This document shows positions 7,577 through 57,800 of a stretch of DNA of 64,000 nucleotides, piece by piece. Positions within the stretch are counted from its first letter, which is position 1. Each line of letters opens with the position of its first letter. The translations under genes and the position numbers were made by a program. Source of the DNA: a virus; the IMG/VR virus record IMGVR_UViG_3300046532_001046, positions 36,419 through 100,418 of that record; one strand, 5' to 3'. Below the pieces are notes generated by a model. It had not been told where the DNA came from and searched no databases. It saw nothing but the letters and a program-made list of their open reading frames with translations.

Positions 7577-7606
7577 ATACTACTGGCAGTGCAGGGAGAT
7601 TAGCAA
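7577..7606 (-). promoter_or_regulatory. Promoter P4 of the conserved early family
   Basis: The minus strand reads -35 TTGCTA (7601-7606), an 18-base spacer starting ATCTCCCTGCACTG, and -10 TAGTAT (7577-7582). The upstream block with CTTGCCCCAGCCC is also shared with P1 and P2. It lies about 40 bases before the DUF932 start codon. Confidence 0.76.
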
Positions 7607-9128: not shown

Positions 9129-9320
9129 TCACCCTGACACCTTAGTGTACAGGATCAAGTATCCCATAAAGATACTTAAAGCGAGGATGATTGACAATGG
9201 AATGAGTGTCACGTACCAGTTTCTTAGAAACTTAAGCAACCGAACCTTCCCAACATTTCTTTGACGGATTCCAGTGATGTACGCCACTGCTGTAGTATAG
9301 CCATGCGGCGGTGGCGACAT
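9129..9320 (-). CDS. Small single-span membrane protein, holin or anchor candidate
   Basis: The C-terminal part has a basic cluster (RLLKFLRNW) followed by one strong membrane segment (IPLSIILALSIFMGYLIL) and the short tail YTKVSG. The start is uncertain. ATG 9320 gives 63 residues and overlaps the lysozyme-like gene by 89 bases. A TTG at 9239 behind GGGAAGG would give 36 residues with only an eight-base overlap. Its position immediately after a secreted cell-wall hydrolase suggests a holin, spanin-like or regulatory membrane partner, but this is inference from context. Confidence 0.55.
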   Translation of the reverse strand: MSPPPHGYTTAVAYITGIRQRNVGKVRLLKFLRNWYVTLIPLSIILALSIFMGYLILYTKVSG

Positions 9321-10023
9321 TGGCTCGCCCGTGGAACGGGGGGTAGTCCTTAAAGCCCGCCTTACCGGAACGCTCAACCCAGTACTTCGCCAAGTGTTGA
9401 AACCAGCCGATGGCTAGAGCCGATGACACCGAGGTAGACCCTATGTCCCAACTCCGTCCACTGGACTCACAGAAGGCGATCCTCTGAGCGAGTGCCCTGT
9501 CCTCGGGCAGGAAGTATTCGTTTATCAGTTCTCCCAGAGTCGGAAGTTCATAGTGCTCGTCACCCGACAAGCACCCGTGTGAACAGGGCGTCGGTGATTG
9601 CATGACCTCAGGGTAGAAGTACAGGATGGCAGACATGGGATTACCGAACGATTTGATGTGTGCCTTGCGGGTCTGTGGTCCGTAGACGCCATCGACGTAG
9701 TCCATCCCCAGTTCCTCTTGGAGGGCCACAATCTGTGGGCCTTTGTCGTAGTAGTTATAGCGCTCAGTAAGCGGACTACGAGTATTGCTGGGTGACGATG
9801 AAGTGGTGGTAGACGACGGGGAGGTGGTTGAGGTGGTGGGGGGATCAACAACGACCCCGCCGTCTACCGGGTGGAGGTGCGGGGAATCGAACCCCGGTGC
9901 AGCAATCGTCCGCGTGCGGGTTTCCTTGCTATCGAAGCCATCCTCACCCCCTAGGTCACTAGCATACCACCCTAGTTGCATGACTGTGAGTATTCCTAAG
10001 GTTAGTACTCGTGCCAGAAACAT
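9232..10023 (-). CDS. Secreted or anchored lysozyme-like hydrolase with a peptidoglycan-binding domain
   Basis: The 263-residue protein starts at ATG 10023 behind GGGGGAAC. It has a hydrophobic N-terminus (residues about 2-19, FLARVLTLGILTVMQLGW), then a Ser/Thr/Pro-rich linker near 60-85 of the kind common in actinobacterial exported proteins. A PG_binding_1-like repeat (about 88-130, with GPQIVALQEELG and DGVYGPQTRKA) follows. The C-terminal lysozyme/transglycosylase-like domain contains the probable catalytic Glu in FCESSGRSW, then ALAIGWFQHLAKYW. It should cut host peptidoglycan glycan strands from outside or in the periplasm-like space. A tRNA/tmRNA-like fold overlaps its early codons. 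Confidence 0.75.
   Translation of the reverse strand: MFLARVLTLGILTVMQLGWYASDLGGEDGFDSKETRTRTIAAPGFDSPHLHPVDGGVVVDPPTTSTTSPSSTTTSSSPSNTRSPLTERYNYYDKGPQIVALQEELGMDYVDGVYGPQTRKAHIKSFGNPMSAILYFYPEVMQSPTPCSHGCLSGDEHYELPTLGELINEYFLPEDRALAQRIAFCESSGRSWDIGSTSVSSALAIGWFQHLAKYWVERSGKAGFKDYPPFHGRANVATAAWLYYSSGVHHWNPSKKCWEGSVA
9872..9951 (-). ncRNA. Candidate tmRNA/tRNA-like structure inside the lysozyme gene
   Basis: Read on the minus strand, GGGGGTG (9951-9945) pairs with CACCTCC (9879-9873) in a seven-base acceptor-like stem with one G-U. The unpaired A and CC that follow resemble an ACC end. Just before lies a perfect T-arm, CGGGG, loop TTCGATT, CCCCG. The 5' side carries GGCTTCGA, similar to the GGNTTCGAC after the acceptor of tmRNA, and AGCAA/TTGCT could form a P2-like helix. 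It has no anticodon arm and no room for a tag frame. It lies wholly within codons of the hydrolase, so chance, an ssrA-derived attachment remnant or a real RNA are all open. Confidence 0.3.
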
Positions 10024-28343: not shown

Positions 28344-29616
28344 CTGCCTGCTCCGAGTCGTCGTTATCGTTATCATCATCTGCGTCTGTCACTTCTGTGA
28401 AGTCCATGTTGTCCCAGTCCCACTTGATGGTGACCTCCCCATGTGGAGAGGTACGGGAGAGTAGGACTCTCACAATGGACCGGTCCTCGTAGTCGGGGTC
28501 TCTCTCCACGGACATGACCGTATCTGAGTCCTGCACAAACGAGGACGAGTACCCAATGGCGTCGGCTGTCACCCGTCGTGAGGTGCGACTGCTCAACTTG
28601 GATGACAATACCTGTGTTGTTACAACAATGGGTATCTTAAACTGCTGTGCCACTCTCTTGAGAGAGCGGGTGATGTTGGTCAATGCTTGTGGGCTGCCCT
28701 TAGTCTCCCCGTTCTCATCATCCATCATGTAGACACCATCCACGAACACTATGCCGGGGTTGTGCTGCTTGATCTTGGCAGCAAGACTGGAGACTGTTGT
28801 CGCTGACGCTATGTCCTCAACCAGTATGAACGGACTACTATTCTTGCGAGTCCTGAGAGCCCGGTCCAGCCTAGATACCTCAGCGGTGGTAGACATACCA
28901 CGAAGCAACCCGGTGTGGGAAACCTTTGCCACGTAGGCGTCGTACCTCGCAGACTGCTCCTCCACACTCATCTCAAAGGAAACCAGCAGAGGTAGCACCC
29001 CTTCAGAGTTTGCCCTCTCGGCCATGACCATAAGCAGCATGGACTTTCCCCGTTTGGCCTCACCAACAAAGGTGATCAACTGCTGTGGTCGTATCCCTGA
29101 TGTGAGCCTATCTAGTCCGGGGAACCCAGTGGAGATACCGATCAGACCATCAGGCCGGTCCCGCATCTCTGCGTACTTAGCCAGACGCTCCTCCCACTGG
29201 TCAATGATGTTCACATCTCTGGAGTACGTCGTGTCCCCTGAAACCTCTTGGAGGCCGGAGTTCAGCAGGGAAAGGGCATCAGAGACCTTGCCATCCGTCA
29301 AGAGGGGCAAGGCTAGGGTGAGGGTCTCCGTGATGGCCTCCCGACGGTAGCCATCAATAACCTCCTTCACCAAGCGGCTCAGGGACTCGTCACTAGCGTC
29401 CCCCATCGTGACCGACGGGTATTCTGTTAGCAGAGCCCTCTCGGTGGGTATCTCGTTGTGGGTGTGCCAGAACTCCAGCAACCAACTCCAAATGGGTGCG
29501 TAAGATCGGGAGAAATGCTTGGACTTGACGCCCAAGTCAATGACATCCACCAAACTCCCGTCTGACAGAACCTTACTGATCAGGAGTTGCTCTGCACTTG
29601 CCACTACAGGACCCAC
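28324..29616 (-). CDS. DnaB-like replicative helicase
   Basis: The 430-residue protein uses GTG at 29616. An N-terminal helical domain (AEQLLISKVLSDG) precedes a linker and the RecA-like core: ISTGFPGLDRLTSGIRPQQL, Walker A GEAKRGKS at 185-192, Walker B strand GIVFVDGVYMM, and a Gln sensor in IPIVVTTQVLSS. The acidic tail (TDADDDNDNDDSEQADGYSDW, quoted only to show composition as D/N-rich) is unusual and may contact the loader or SSB. It is coupled to primase downstream and lies near the DnaC-like loader. Confidence 0.85.
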   Translation of the reverse strand: MGPVVASAEQLLISKVLSDGSLVDVIDLGVKSKHFSRSYAPIWSWLLEFWHTHNEIPTERALLTEYPSVTMGDASDESLSRLVKEVIDGYRREAITETLTLALPLLTDGKVSDALSLLNSGLQEVSGDTTYSRDVNIIDQWEERLAKYAEMRDRPDGLIGISTGFPGLDRLTSGIRPQQLITFVGEAKRGKSMLLMVMAERANSEGVLPLLVSFEMSVEEQSARYDAYVAKVSHTGLLRGMSTTAEVSRLDRALRTRKNSSPFILVEDIASATTVSSLAAKIKQHNPGIVFVDGVYMMDDENGETKGSPQALTNITRSLKRVAQQFKIPIVVTTQVLSSKLSSRTSRRVTADAIGYSSSFVQDSDTVMSVERDPDYEDRSIVRVLLSRTSPHGEVTIKWDWDNMDFTEVTDADDDNDNDDSEQADGYSDW

Positions 29617-30056
29617 TCATTGTGGGGTGAGGCGACCCTCGCCCTGAGGCCCAGCAACTGTGCCTGCGCCTCGGTGGCGACATGGATCTTCATGGAGGGA
29701 CTGTGGTACTTCATCTCTGCCTGAAGATCATAGATATTCTCAAACTGGTAGACCGGAACTGACACACCCTTGCGGGCCAACCAGCGTTCGATTGCGTCTT
29801 CCACCCCGTAGGTCAAGCATGTGTATACCTCTACCCCTACACCACGACGGTTGACACTGTCCACCAGTGACTTGATTGGCAGTTCGTAGGGTGACCACAT
29901 ACCAATGTACCTGTGCCACTCGTGCTGCCTGACGGCCTTGGACGCCCTCAACTTCTGGATGTTCTTGGAGGGGGGTCCAGCCAGCACTCCCTCAAACAGG
30001 CACGCCTGCTTGATCGGAGCGTCGGACTGTATGTCGTTACGTTCCACTGGCAGCAC
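29604..30056 (-). CDS. Hypothetical alpha/beta protein in the replisome operon
   Basis: This 150-residue protein has a basic first half (NIQKLRASKAVRQHEWHRY) and an alpha/beta second half (GVGVEVYTCLTYGVEDAIER, MKIHVATEAQAQLLG). The second half resembles the Rossmann-like repeats of HAD-type proteins without a complete active site. It overlaps helicase and loader genes on either side. A replisome accessory role is inferred from position only. Confidence 0.6.
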   Translation of the reverse strand: MLPVERNDIQSDAPIKQACLFEGVLAGPPSKNIQKLRASKAVRQHEWHRYIGMWSPYELPIKSLVDSVNRRGVGVEVYTCLTYGVEDAIERWLARKGVSVPVYQFENIYDLQAEMKYHSPSMKIHVATEAQAQLLGLRARVASPHNEWVL

Positions 30057-30660
30057 TTCTATAATCTTCGGTGTGCAGGGTCACGGGAATGCACGCCGCC
30101 CGCACTTCTGAATGGAACTTGAGGGTCACATGCTGCTTGAGGTTTTCAATGGTGTCGTGGCACACCACGATGGTGACTAACTTACGACTGGTTCTGCTAG
30201 TGAACAGGTCAGAGATTTCACGCTTTGCAAAGCCCGTCTGGCGAATAGTGTCCACATCATCCAGTACCACTACATCGTACACGGAACGTAGATAGGGGAT
30301 CAAGTTACCCTCTTCGTACCCATCTGGCAGTACACCATCGTTCTTTCGCTCGTCATCCATTGCCCGCACGTAATCGTTGGCAGTGATGTACCTACCAGTC
30401 TGTCGGTACGCCCTGATAGCAACCCGGAGGGCAGCGACCGCCAGATGAGACTTGCCAGAACCGTGCTTACCTGAGAACAGTAGCCCCGTCCCTGATTCCC
30501 TGTGCTTGTCGAAGTCCTCCAACCACGAAACCACCCCTGAAGTATCACCAGAGTAGTTGTGGACACGAGCGTGCTCCATGCTGGAAGGAATCCCAGCCAG
30601 ACGAGTCCTCTCGTCTTTCGGCTGGTTCCTCCAGTACTTGGGACCGTGCCACTCAGTCAC
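30037..30660 (-). CDS. DnaC-like AAA+ helicase loader
   Basis: I choose GTG at 30660, which overlaps the upstream stop as GTGA, giving 207 residues. A TTG five codons earlier is possible. Walker A is GKHGSGKS near 64-71 and Walker B is VVVLDDVD. Sensor-type residues follow in KLVTIVVCHDTIENL. The size and single AAA+ core fit DnaC/IstB-type loaders, which deliver the replicative helicase. The N-terminal 30 residues hold Trp-rich sequence (EWHGPKYWRN). Confidence 0.8.
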   Translation of the reverse strand: MTEWHGPKYWRNQPKDERTRLAGIPSSMEHARVHNYSGDTSGVVSWLEDFDKHRESGTGLLFSGKHGSGKSHLAVAALRVAIRAYRQTGRYITANDYVRAMDDERKNDGVLPDGYEEGNLIPYLRSVYDVVVLDDVDTIRQTGFAKREISDLFTSRTSRKLVTIVVCHDTIENLKQHVTLKFHSEVRAACIPVTLHTEDYRSAASGT

Positions 30661-30890
30661 GGGCGCTCGCTCCAAACGTCACGCCATTTCGATGGTGGGT
30701 GGTTCTCCTCAACGGCTGCCCTGTGTCCGGGGCCGGTGTACGGACGGATCACAGGGATGCACGGGTCGTACTCATCCCATTCGAGATCCTCCTCCTCAGA
30801 GGTGGGAATCCCGTCGTGTGTGCTACAGACCGGAGGACCACAGAACCCCTGTTCAATCCCGTATGTCAGCCAGTGGTCGAAGTTCATCAT
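30657..30890 (-). CDS. Small hypothetical protein upstream of the loader
   Basis: A 77-residue protein begins at ATG 30890, with TGATG coupling to the winged-helix gene. It is acidic and Pro-rich (IPTSEEEDLEWDEYDPCIPV) with a C-terminal WRDVWSERP. Two cysteines near 17 and 22 are too few for a convincing metal site. No family is recognised. Confidence 0.55.
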   Translation of the reverse strand: MMNFDHWLTYGIEQGFCGPPVCSTHDGIPTSEEEDLEWDEYDPCIPVIRPYTGPGHRAAVEENHPPSKWRDVWSERP

Positions 30891-31564
30891 CACTCAGCCG
30901 GAGGCATCACGTCAACGTACACGATGTCCTCTGACCCTTCCTTCACACGCTTGAGAAGGGTCTGGCGGTCAGCCAAGAACATCTGCCAAGGTGGCACGTC
31001 CTCCACGGAACGGTCCCCACGCTCAAGATCCACAGCAAACAACGTCATCATCTTCTTTAGTTGGAACTCTGTCACGCCCTGCTTGTCCAGCATGTCCTTA
31101 AAGTTCTTGCCCAGCGCCTTCGCATTAACCGTGGACTGTATGGACATGGGGATGTGCATCTCCACTTCAGTGGCGAAGAAGCGGATTAACCGTGGAATAC
31201 GACCCTTGACCACTGCTTCTTCCTTAGCCTCCGGGTCTTCCCCCAAGGTTGCGAAGTCATCCCAATCCACCGTATCTCCTCCAAACAGTACTGTGTATGT
31301 GTTGCTTGTTCTAGCACCACTGTCGCGGGTAAGCACCCCTTCCGAAAGCAGTACCTTGATGGCCCTCTGTGCCGTACTAGCCGAACACCCCATCCTCTGT
31401 CCCAGTCGTTCGTACCCTATCCTCACAGTATTCTTCGTGTTGTCCATCAAGCATACCAACTCTACTAACGCTGCCACCGCTGCAAACTGGCCCCGCAGGC
31501 GAGAGCACACCCACGTAGGGTACCTTCCAAAGGTGTTCACCGCCAATCGTCCCATCTGGTACAC
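30890..31564 (-). CDS. Winged-helix replication-initiator-like protein
   Basis: I use GTG at 31564 because GAGGTGG lies nine bases upstream. ATG at 31555 would be 18 bases away. The 224-residue protein has an N-terminal winged helix of replication-initiator or MarR type (FAAVAALVELVCLMDNTKN, then GQRMGCSASTAQRAIKVLL and TSNTYTVLF), followed by helical segments and an acidic C-terminus. It is the first gene of the loader, helicase and primase operon, so it may bind the origin or regulate the operon. The Shine-Dalgarno is inside a hairpin at 31573-31589. Confidence 0.7.
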   Translation of the reverse strand: MYQMGRLAVNTFGRYPTWVCSRLRGQFAAVAALVELVCLMDNTKNTVRIGYERLGQRMGCSASTAQRAIKVLLSEGVLTRDSGARTSNTYTVLFGGDTVDWDDFATLGEDPEAKEEAVVKGRIPRLIRFFATEVEMHIPMSIQSTVNAKALGKNFKDMLDKQGVTEFQLKKMMTLFAVDLERGDRSVEDVPPWQMFLADRQTLLKRVKEGSEDIVYVDVMPPAE

Positions 31565-34917: not shown

Positions 34918-36416
34918 TAGGCAATACCACCGCTAACCCCAGCGAACGTGATGGTACGGAGCACGGGTAGGGAGATGGCAGAGGAGGTTGTAGCAGTGGG
35001 AGTGTGGTCCGCCACAGAGGTACCACCGGATGAAGCACCTAGGTTGCTGATGAACACGCTCTGTACACCTTCCACACTTTGTGCAGCAGACAAGATAGTG
35101 CTAAGTCTAATGATCATATTGAAATCTATGTTGTTCCAAGAGAACAGCGCCCTAACGGCGGCGTCTATGTTTGACTTCACAACCTCCTGATAATGGCCGT
35201 CTTTAACGATGACACTACTGAAGGCTACGTATACGTCCGTAAGACTGATAGTCGTACTGATGTTAGCAACAGTAACTCCAATCATGGACCTACTTTGCAG
35301 ATAGTTAGTCAGATTATTATGGATGTCAGTCCCAGCAGGACCAAAGTTAGGAGACCCTGCGGCCTCAGTCAAGTACAGAGTAGAAGTACCACTAGGAATG
35401 TTCTGATAGTTAGAATAGGTTGGCAGGGCTGCGTAGTTAACAGTCACTGCGCCTGAGGAAACTGTGGACAAGGCAACAGCCTTACTCGCACCAGAGAACC
35501 CCAGCATCATGGTCTTGTAATCGTTAAGTGTGACCGCCCTGTCCTGAATACGCCTGAGAGCGGGGGCGTTGACCTTAATGGATGCAAGATTCTCTGGGTC
35601 TGTCCCCCCTGAAGACAGCGCAGAAGAAGCAATCGAAATAGAAACCACCGGACTGCTCATCGTTGTGATTGCATTAGCAGCAACATTGCCACCTGACCCC
35701 TGCCCCACACGGTAGGTAGCAACCATAGTACTACCAGCGTCAGGCACCTTCCCGTTCACGCCATTCCCTAGTACAACCCGAGTCGTGTCGGTGCTGTCGG
35801 TTACAGAAGTGAACACAGGGGCAGTAGACCCCACCTCGCTTATCCTTGCAGTATGCGTATACGTAGTGGTCCCCACAGTCAGGGTCAATGAGTTAGGAAC
35901 TATCTTCAGTTCGGCCAGAGGAAAGGAGGTCCCTCTGTCCCCAGTGAAGTTAGAAGTCAAGGTTTCAGACACCGCTCTGCCCTCGGCTACCGGCACGGTG
36001 GCCGTGGAGTTTGCTGCTGCGGTAACAGCACCCGTAGAAGTGAAGTAGACCACCACCTTGGCCCCGGAAGCCGGAACCAGAAACACTGTGCCCTTGGGAA
36101 GGGTTATGGACGCTCCTGAAGAGTTGGACACGGTAACGGTAGTAGTGGCAGACGTGCGGGAGTTAGGTAGATAGCCCATCAGGCGAGCGATAGCCCGAAC
36201 AGAGGACGCTTGGGTGGCGGTGTCCAAGTAAGCCTCAGTGTACGCACGATCAATGTAATAGTTCTGTACGTCTGCCACGTAGGACCAGAGGTCAATAAGC
36301 ATCATGGTGAAGTCAGGTGAAGACGTGGAAGTCCACTCGGGAATGGTGGCTCTCGCACGCGCCACCAAGTCGGACTTGACTGAAGCGAAGTCCCTACTGG
36401 TGTAGTCGATGGGCAT
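34917..36416 (-). CDS. Baseplate J-like wedge protein
   Basis: This 499-residue protein shows the gpJ family features: PIDYTSRDFASVKSDLVARA at the start, WTSTSSPDFTMMLIDLWSYV, then AYLDTATQASSVRAIARLMG and the NSRTSATTTVTVSNSSG beta region. It forms the baseplate wedge together with gp25/W. It sits between the gp25-like gene and protein I, in canonical order. Confidence 0.88.
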   Translation of the reverse strand: MPIDYTSRDFASVKSDLVARARATIPEWTSTSSPDFTMMLIDLWSYVADVQNYYIDRAYTEAYLDTATQASSVRAIARLMGYLPNSRTSATTTVTVSNSSGASITLPKGTVFLVPASGAKVVVYFTSTGAVTAAANSTATVPVAEGRAVSETLTSNFTGDRGTSFPLAELKIVPNSLTLTVGTTTYTHTARISEVGSTAPVFTSVTDSTDTTRVVLGNGVNGKVPDAGSTMVATYRVGQGSGGNVAANAITTMSSPVVSISIASSALSSGGTDPENLASIKVNAPALRRIQDRAVTLNDYKTMMLGFSGASKAVALSTVSSGAVTVNYAALPTYSNYQNIPSGTSTLYLTEAAGSPNFGPAGTDIHNNLTNYLQSRSMIGVTVANISTTISLTDVYVAFSSVIVKDGHYQEVVKSNIDAAVRALFSWNNIDFNMIIRLSTILSAAQSVEGVQSVFISNLGASSGGTSVADHTPTATTSSAISLPVLRTITFAGVSGGIA

Positions 36417-56655: not shown

Positions 56656-56862
56656 TCAGTCGGCCAATGAGGCCGTGCCCTTCGTCCCCAACTTGGAGGC
56701 CAAAGCGCCCTTCAATACTGAGATAGCGGCAGCAACACCCGCACCAGCCATCATCTTCCACTGATCAACACCAAGGTCAAACATTGAGTTGGAGGTCATG
56801 GCGCCGAGTGAGGCCTGAACAAATGTGGCTAGAACTCTCTCTACTAGATCCTTCGTAATCAT
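56656..56862 (-). CDS. r1t-like holin
   Basis: I start at ATG 56862 (68 residues). ATG 56871 is possible. The sequence follows the Phage_r1t_holin pattern: a Lys/Glu helix with KDLVERVLATFVQASLGAM, then an Asp-Gln-Trp turn (GVDQWKMMAGAGVAAAISVL) and a basic, Gly/Ser-rich end. Two membrane segments are expected. Such holins open the membrane for the endolysin. Here it is encoded alone in the head gene region, 19 kb from the M15 endolysin. Confidence 0.75.
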   Translation of the reverse strand: MITKDLVERVLATFVQASLGAMTSNSMFDLGVDQWKMMAGAGVAAAISVLKGALASKLGTKGTASLAD

Positions 56863-56891: not shown

Positions 56892-56921
56892 TTGCTTTCC
56901 CATAGGGTCAGCGGCTACTAT
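56892..56921 (+). promoter_or_regulatory. Candidate plus-strand promoter for the lone rightward gene
   Basis: The plus strand has TTGCTT (56892-56897), an 18-base spacer and TACTAT (56916-56921), the same geometry as the minus-strand early promoters, although the spacer sequence is different. A perfect TATAAT on the minus strand (56920-56925) overlaps it and could serve the holin, so the gap may be a divergent promoter region. Confidence 0.5.
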
Positions 56922-56955
56922 TATACATGAGCCAGATGAACCAAGGAGCGAAACC

Positions 56956-57204
56956 ATGCCCGGAACGGAAAGTACGGTAGTGACTGATCCCCTAGAAACA
57001 TACCCTGATCAGGCACTTATCGCCAAAATATCGACTGACCTTGTCAACAAGTTTCAGTACGGATGGCTGGAACACTACTTTGAGGTGTTCCTCTCCGACA
57101 CGGTGGAGCGGTTGGTCGTTGACCACAACAAGGTCCTAAAGGGGATCGCTGAAGACCTGACTGTGGCTGTGCTGGTCTACCTGACCAACAACAAGTTGAT
57201 CTAG
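56956..57204 (+). CDS. Only rightward gene; small hypothetical protein, 82 aa
   Basis: I start at ATG 56956, eight bases after AGGAG. The longer frame has no ribosome site. The product begins MPGTESTVVTDPLETYPDQA and continues as amphipathic helices (LIAKISTDLVNKFQYGWLEH, then LVVDHNKVLKGIAEDLTVAV). No family is recognised. Orientation, its own promoter, and its insertion between two late operons mark it as a possible moron, control or exclusion gene. Its TAG shares the tetranucleotide CTAG with the stop of the convergent gene. Confidence 0.7.
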   Translation: MPGTESTVVTDPLETYPDQALIAKISTDLVNKFQYGWLEHYFEVFLSDTVERLVVDHNKVLKGIAEDLTVAVLVYLTNNKLI

Positions 57205-57800
57205 GTACCGCCGAACATCCAGCCGCGCTGGTTGTCGGACTCGCGCTCCACAATAGGCTGGTCGGTGTCTAGGGGGTCTCTGCTGCTCTCCCACCGATCA
57301 GCCTCACCTTCTACAAGCACATGCCCCGGAGCAATGTTCTTCGGGTGATTGGGGTTGTACTCAGTGGTGAAGTTTGAGCGTTGGAACGAAGCGATCTGGT
57401 TGTTCTCTTTCGCAAAGGTGCGTGAGTCACTAAACCCATCTGGCGATTCAGGGAACTTACGAGATACATCCAAGTAAGCCTCTCCTTCACTCCAGCCCCC
57501 AACTAGAGAGTCCAATCCAGTTAGAGCGTCCAGATGCTTCGGTGAGTTGATGTACGTGGCTAACTGCTCCTTGCCGAATGACTCAAGGGCGTGCTTCTGC
57601 TCGTGGCCCTCTTTTGAAACAAAGACACCCACCTCAGGACGCTCTCCGGTGCGGGGATCAACCGATAGCCCCCCCTCCTCGTGCATCTCCCGAACGACCT
57701 CGTCTGGGTTGATGCGCTCATAGACTGCTGGACCACTCATGTCCACCGGGTCATTGGTGGATAGGTCAGTGGGGGTATCAGACATACCCAAGTGTACCAT
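57201..57800 (-). CDS. Hypothetical protein convergent to the rightward gene
   Basis: The 199-residue protein starts at ATG 57800 (TAATG overlap). ATG 57785 is an alternative. It is hydrophilic and acidic, with VVREMHEEGGLSVDPRTGER and VGVFVSKEGHEQKHALESFG as the best-ordered parts. No motif is recognised. Its stop codon overlaps that of the rightward gene. Confidence 0.6.
   Translation of the reverse strand: MVHLGMSDTPTDLSTNDPVDMSGPAVYERINPDEVVREMHEEGGLSVDPRTGERPEVGVFVSKEGHEQKHALESFGKEQLATYINSPKHLDALTGLDSLVGGWSEGEAYLDVSRKFPESPDGFSDSRTFAKENNQIASFQRSNFTTEYNPNHPKNIAPGHVLVEGEADRWESSRDPLDTDQPIVERESDNQRGWMFGGT

Follow-up and report, generated by a model that had tools for sequence, protein, structure and literature searches.

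In prophage ST64B, STMMW_20121 is a moron or accessory locus that lies antisense to the lytic genes and has its own promoter (PMC7067206). The rightward gene described here, conv82, resembles such morons in being a single small gene placed opposite structural genes, with its own predicted promoter, a patchy presence and a module-like exchange; it differs from them in having no detected terminator and no sign of a prophage state. A second parallel is offered by bidirectional bacterial promoters, in which a symmetrical -10 serves both strands (PMC10268837, PMC12825309). The region upstream of conv82 has the opposite -10 elements, the common A/T core and the offset described for these promoters, but it also contains a rightward -35-like element specific to loci with conv82, which puts a pair of overlapping promoters and a single symmetrical promoter on an equal footing. 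Finally, the conv82 product is small, acidic and helical, as are Ocr-like proteins (PHROG 2568), but its match to them is not significant (sub-threshold in two of ten members of the conv82 family, E values of 0.025 and 0.12, with no match for the window protein), its net charge is only -5 to -11 and the fold search was empty.

The window is a stretch of 64,000 nucleotides, bases 36419–100418 of a virus record that is 100,418 bases long. Long leftward open reading frames (ORFs) served to train a codon-usage scan, which was run over the window and the remaining 36 kb and kept 81 leftward genes in the window and a single rightward one, conv82 (Table 1). The original prediction of a sole rightward gene therefore holds for the window but not for the record, in which the same scan kept three more rightward candidates outside the window, at record positions 29403–31191. 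A promoter-like site, TTGACA-16-TACGCT, lies near these candidates (L013 9403–11191, + strand).

Read in frame, conv82 has a coding potential of 0.33 bits per codon, against negative values for each of the three antisense frames, and the Shine-Dalgarno sequence predicted ahead of it is present. Only the sense frame is uninterrupted in all 11 homologues examined, each alternative frame containing a stop in at least some of them, and on this basis conv82 is coding. It is scarcely credible that conv82 is a chance ORF lying antisense to the head operon: pN/pS is indeed lower for the antisense than for the sense frame in some close pairs, but the open sense frame, the retained Shine-Dalgarno sequence and a 27%-identical homologue that keeps the slot and the start and stop geometry all argue against it. 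An antisense coding frame, hinted at by the positions of substitutions, was ruled out by stops in several homologues.

Table 1. Features at and around conv82 and related elements (window positions unless stated otherwise)
Feature	Position	Strand	Basis or remarks
conv82	56956..57204	+	ATG 56956 to TAG 57204, 82 codons; ORF with Shine-Dalgarno, coding potential, sense frame open in 11 homologues
Shine-Dalgarno AAGGAG of conv82	56943..56948	+	sequence; kept in nearly all close-clade homologues
Putative rightward promoter TTGCTT-18-TACTAT	56892..56921	+	TTGCTT 56892–56897, 18-nt spacer, TACTAT 56916–56921; score tracks gene presence; hexamers as in three early-type promoters
Alternative rightward -10 TATTAT	56919–56924	+	
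Leftward -10 TATAAT of holin/portal operon	56920..56925	-	kept across loci with and without conv82
Hairpin at predicted 5' end of leftward holin transcript	56894..56912	-	differing sequence, same place, most loci
r1t-type holin gene	56656..56862	-	PF16945 above cut-off and PHROG 443; flanks divergent region
g199, 199-aa gene facing conv82	57201..57800	-	block exchange with conv82
CTAG with both stop codons	57201..57204	.	conv82 TAG 57202–57204 (+), g199 TAG 57201–57203 (-); 4-nt stop overlap, 12 of 12 loci checked
Three leftward intergenic promoters TTGCTA-18-TAGTAT	7577–7606, 1818–1847; record 35833–35862	-	identical hexamers
Lone ~60-codon gene	L042 6672–6857, L049 6672–6869, L050 3672–3857, L051 5370–5549	-	also L048, L052

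The setting of conv82 is as originally described: it lies between the holin gene and g199, and its stop codon interlocks with that of g199. The g199 product resembles, at 29% identity, a protein of Synechococcus phage P60 that is annotated as an internal virion protein. The four-base stop overlap, which takes the form CTAG, CTAA or TTAG, persists despite a varying C-terminal tail of g199, and also in a second lineage, where a metallophosphoesterase gene faces the conv82 homologue. Such an overlap is common between compact convergent genes and is therefore weak evidence on its own. No intrinsic terminator was found downstream of conv82 in the window or in five homologous loci.

Protein searches of IMG/VR returned conv82 homologues at 60–100% identity, whereas no relatives were found in 50,697 phage records or in GTDB genomes. 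By portal protein the nearest listed phages are Streptomyces phages BRock and GiJojo, at about 50% identity, and the conv82 profile had no match in either of them or in large freshwater relatives. We surveyed 80 loci on the basis of the portal. Wherever portal identity is 94% or higher and the locus covers the slot, conv82 is present, always reversed and adjoining g199. In the group with 87–91% portal identity, the metallophosphoesterase and holin genes are direct neighbours at most loci; four contigs of this group (L033–L036) carry a reversed 85-aa gene at the slot, without g199. The 85-aa protein is 27% identical to that of conv82 and was matched at an E value of 3.5e-5 by a conv82 profile built without these four contigs, and in a check of that profile 5,000 shuffles scored nowhere near the real protein. 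No opposite-strand gene was found near the portal gene in freshwater relatives (about 77% portal identity). Relatives had been proposed as a check on the original prediction, and the gene is not in all of them: most sister phages are without it. This presence and absence at one site among close relatives, in the close clade and one other lineage, supports an accessory distribution for conv82. Because the close clade looks fixed for it, conv82 may nevertheless be more than a dispensable accessory.

In some sister phages without conv82, a different slot, between homologues of g144 and g86, is occupied by a further small gene of about 60 codons that stands alone on the opposite strand, which fits the accessory reading of conv82. 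In freshwater relatives, a proteasome-subunit-like protein (PF00227) is encoded between the metallophosphoesterase and portal genes (L059 7299–7952, + strand), and similar ORFs occur in L065, L070, L078, L091, L092 and L095. We rejected the reverse-strand gene 60 of GiJojo as a counterpart of conv82, since its placement differs and its protein is hydrophobic.

Among the local genes, conv82 evolves fastest. Its pN/pS ranges from about 0.4 to above 1, compared with 0.04–0.11 for the portal gene, mostly 0.04–0.3 for the holin gene, 0.06–0.14 in most pairs for the metallophosphoesterase gene and about 0.3 for g199. Relaxed constraint could account for part of this, and exchange may be a further cause, through low synonymous divergence; the highest ratios, seen in close pairs, are for that reason no proof of positive selection. 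Divergence along the region is mosaic. Between loci L024 and L029, divergence is 23% in mpe383 and 20% in the holin gene, yet only 4% in g199 and 2.5% in conv82; the L028/L029 pair has the opposite pattern. This indicates that g199 and conv82 are swapped together, as one block, among backbones that are otherwise divergent. The GC content of the gene lies slightly under that of the DNA around it: 0.51 versus 0.55 for the conv82 of the window, 0.37 versus 0.46 in the second lineage, and 2–5 points lower at the other loci.

The gene had been predicted to have its own promoter, and the proposed TTGCTT-18-TACTAT is present, although 149 sites across the record score as highly when it is taken alone. 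For the rightward pair of hexamers, none of the ten loci that carry conv82 scores below 7.5 (mean of 8.4), and the average over twelve loci lacking it is 5.2, the loci being related within each group, so that the counts are not independent; random 93-nt windows gave a mean of 3.1 and a 95th percentile of 7.3. From these scores, a predicted rightward TTGCnn-17/18-TAnnnT promoter is specific to conv82 loci and weaker than the leftward -10. It is weak by consensus, and its -10 is better in the leftward direction, where it overlaps a perfect TATAAT.

This leftward TATAAT, one of only two in 100 kb, is the strongest -10 of the divergent region and points toward the holin and portal genes. At 20 of 21 loci, whether or not conv82 is present, TATAAT, TATACT or TACAAT lies 56–67 nt upstream of the holin ATG. 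Its retention in both situations, together with the hairpin that in most loci follows it near the 5' end predicted for the transcript, makes the holin/portal promoter the simplest reading of the element. Of the own-promoter claim there remains a putative rightward element that scores high at conv82 loci, with the strongest -10 going to the leftward strand; we regard the arrangement as a pair of divergent promoters that overlap. What looks like a promoter on one strand may in fact serve the opposite strand, and a comparison of relatives with and without the gene tells the two apart. The divergent region, at 93 bp, is small enough for a direct test.

Early geometry had also been claimed for the rightward promoter. 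The pattern TTGCTN-17/18-TANTAT occurs four times in the record, at conv82 and at three leftward intergenic sites, with about 0.4 matches expected by chance (our estimate, assuming uniform base frequencies). The three TTGCTA-18-TAGTAT sites have a longer block in common, GCCCCAGCC before the hexamers and ATCTCCCTGCACTG in the spacer, and are likely an early promoter family. The claim is borne out for the hexamers and the 18-nt spacing, which the conv82 promoter has in common with these early-type sites, but the longer block is absent from it; for this reason, and given the number of matches expected by chance, an early assignment is only plausible.

Overlapping promoters invite readings in which conv82 acts on its neighbours. 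It could be a control gene of the late operon, whose transcription or product delays the leftward holin/portal promoter until late, by competition between polymerases at the shared -10, by antisense transcription or through a late factor bound by the helical protein. Consistent with this, the promoters overlap and diverge, the convergent genes have no separating terminator, and conv82 always adjoins the holin gene, in two lineages with different facing genes. We nevertheless regard such a role as rather unlikely: holin/portal control does not need conv82, given that the leftward promoter and the holin gene are retained in most of the sister phages that lack it, and a protein that changes this fast is not what one usually finds in a conserved cis circuit. 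A more elaborate proposal, which we consider distinctly improbable, is an early/late switch built from the overlapping promoters. Early on, rightward sigma-70 firing for conv82 would keep the holin/portal promoter closed and send antisense RNA into g199, a late factor would flip the same -10 to leftward, and the cassette would travel between phages together with its switch.

Alternatively, conv82 could be a late gene that is co-expressed with the divergent holin gene through a symmetrical -10 and has a part in lysis or in the assembly of virions, for example by modulating the holin as an antiholin would or by partnering g199. The leftward TATAAT followed by an A reads as a rightward TATTAT, with the offset seen in bidirectional bacterial promoters (PMC10268837), and conv82 is linked to the holin gene and swapped together with g199. 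The same -10 symmetry, however, also occurs at some loci without conv82, a comparison with the holin profile finds nothing, the protein has no transmembrane span, and the second lineage has a conv82 homologue without g199; we judge this reading unlikely. A proposed paralogy between conv82 and the holin gene, raised by weak hmmsearch hits, was rejected, as hhalign gave a probability of 0.1 and the signal was absent for the second-lineage holin.

The conv82 protein is acidic (pI of 4.3–4.9 among the homologues) and is predicted with low confidence to be all-helical, with three helices. AlphaFold models have a pLDDT of about 60, and with confidence this low their fold matches carry no weight. Searches of Pfam, PHROGs, NCBIfam, PADLOC, PDB sequences and folds gave nothing significant; among the PADLOC defence profiles one homologue matched an unnamed model at an E value of 0.015 and the window protein matched none. 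The earlier suggestion of a defence factor accordingly finds no named defence or anti-defence family to attach to. Its companion, a superinfection factor, is disfavoured in the form of membrane superinfection exclusion, as no membrane-spanning or signal segment was found (GRAVY of -0.43 to 0.12, no long hydrophobic span). The homologues constitute a new small unnamed protein family in phages known mostly from metagenomes.

The reading that fits conv82 best, ahead of late-operon control or a lysis or virion helper, is that of a moron-like accessory gene of a tailed phage, expressed independently and probably serving host takeover or counter-defence; we give it about an even chance. The suggestion that conv82 is a moron or an independent control gene agrees with its accessory distribution, fast evolution, block exchange and promoter score, but classical morons additionally have a terminator, and here no terminator was detected. 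As an accessory gene, conv82 would be part of a small module, open to exchange, that sits between the metallophosphoesterase gene and the holin gene. Host RNA polymerase of the sigma-70 type would use TTGCTT-18-TACTAT to express it rightward, probably early, and separately from the leftward structural genes. The small, soluble product would most likely bind a protein of the host or of a competitor phage, and this would account for how fast it changes and how patchily it occurs. Because the same DNA holds both -10 elements, the conv82 and holin/portal promoters would not be occupied together, and transcripts from either side would be antisense to the other. The sequence itself shows that conv82 is coding, where it is present and absent, that it evolves fast and is exchanged in a block, that the promoter elements overlap and that the stops interlock; the early timing, the promoter use and the target, as well as the counter-defence role, we infer, and the family thereby joins the candidates for counter-defence or host takeover.

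Elsewhere in the window, positions 9869–9951 (- strand) gave an 83-nt Rfam match to tmRNA at 54 bits, above the gathering score. ARAGORN called nothing there. The match lies within a predicted ORF (9232–10023, - strand) and has the acceptor stem and T arm with almost all of the tmRNA body missing; it may be what is left of an attachment site, or else a mini tRNA-like RNA.
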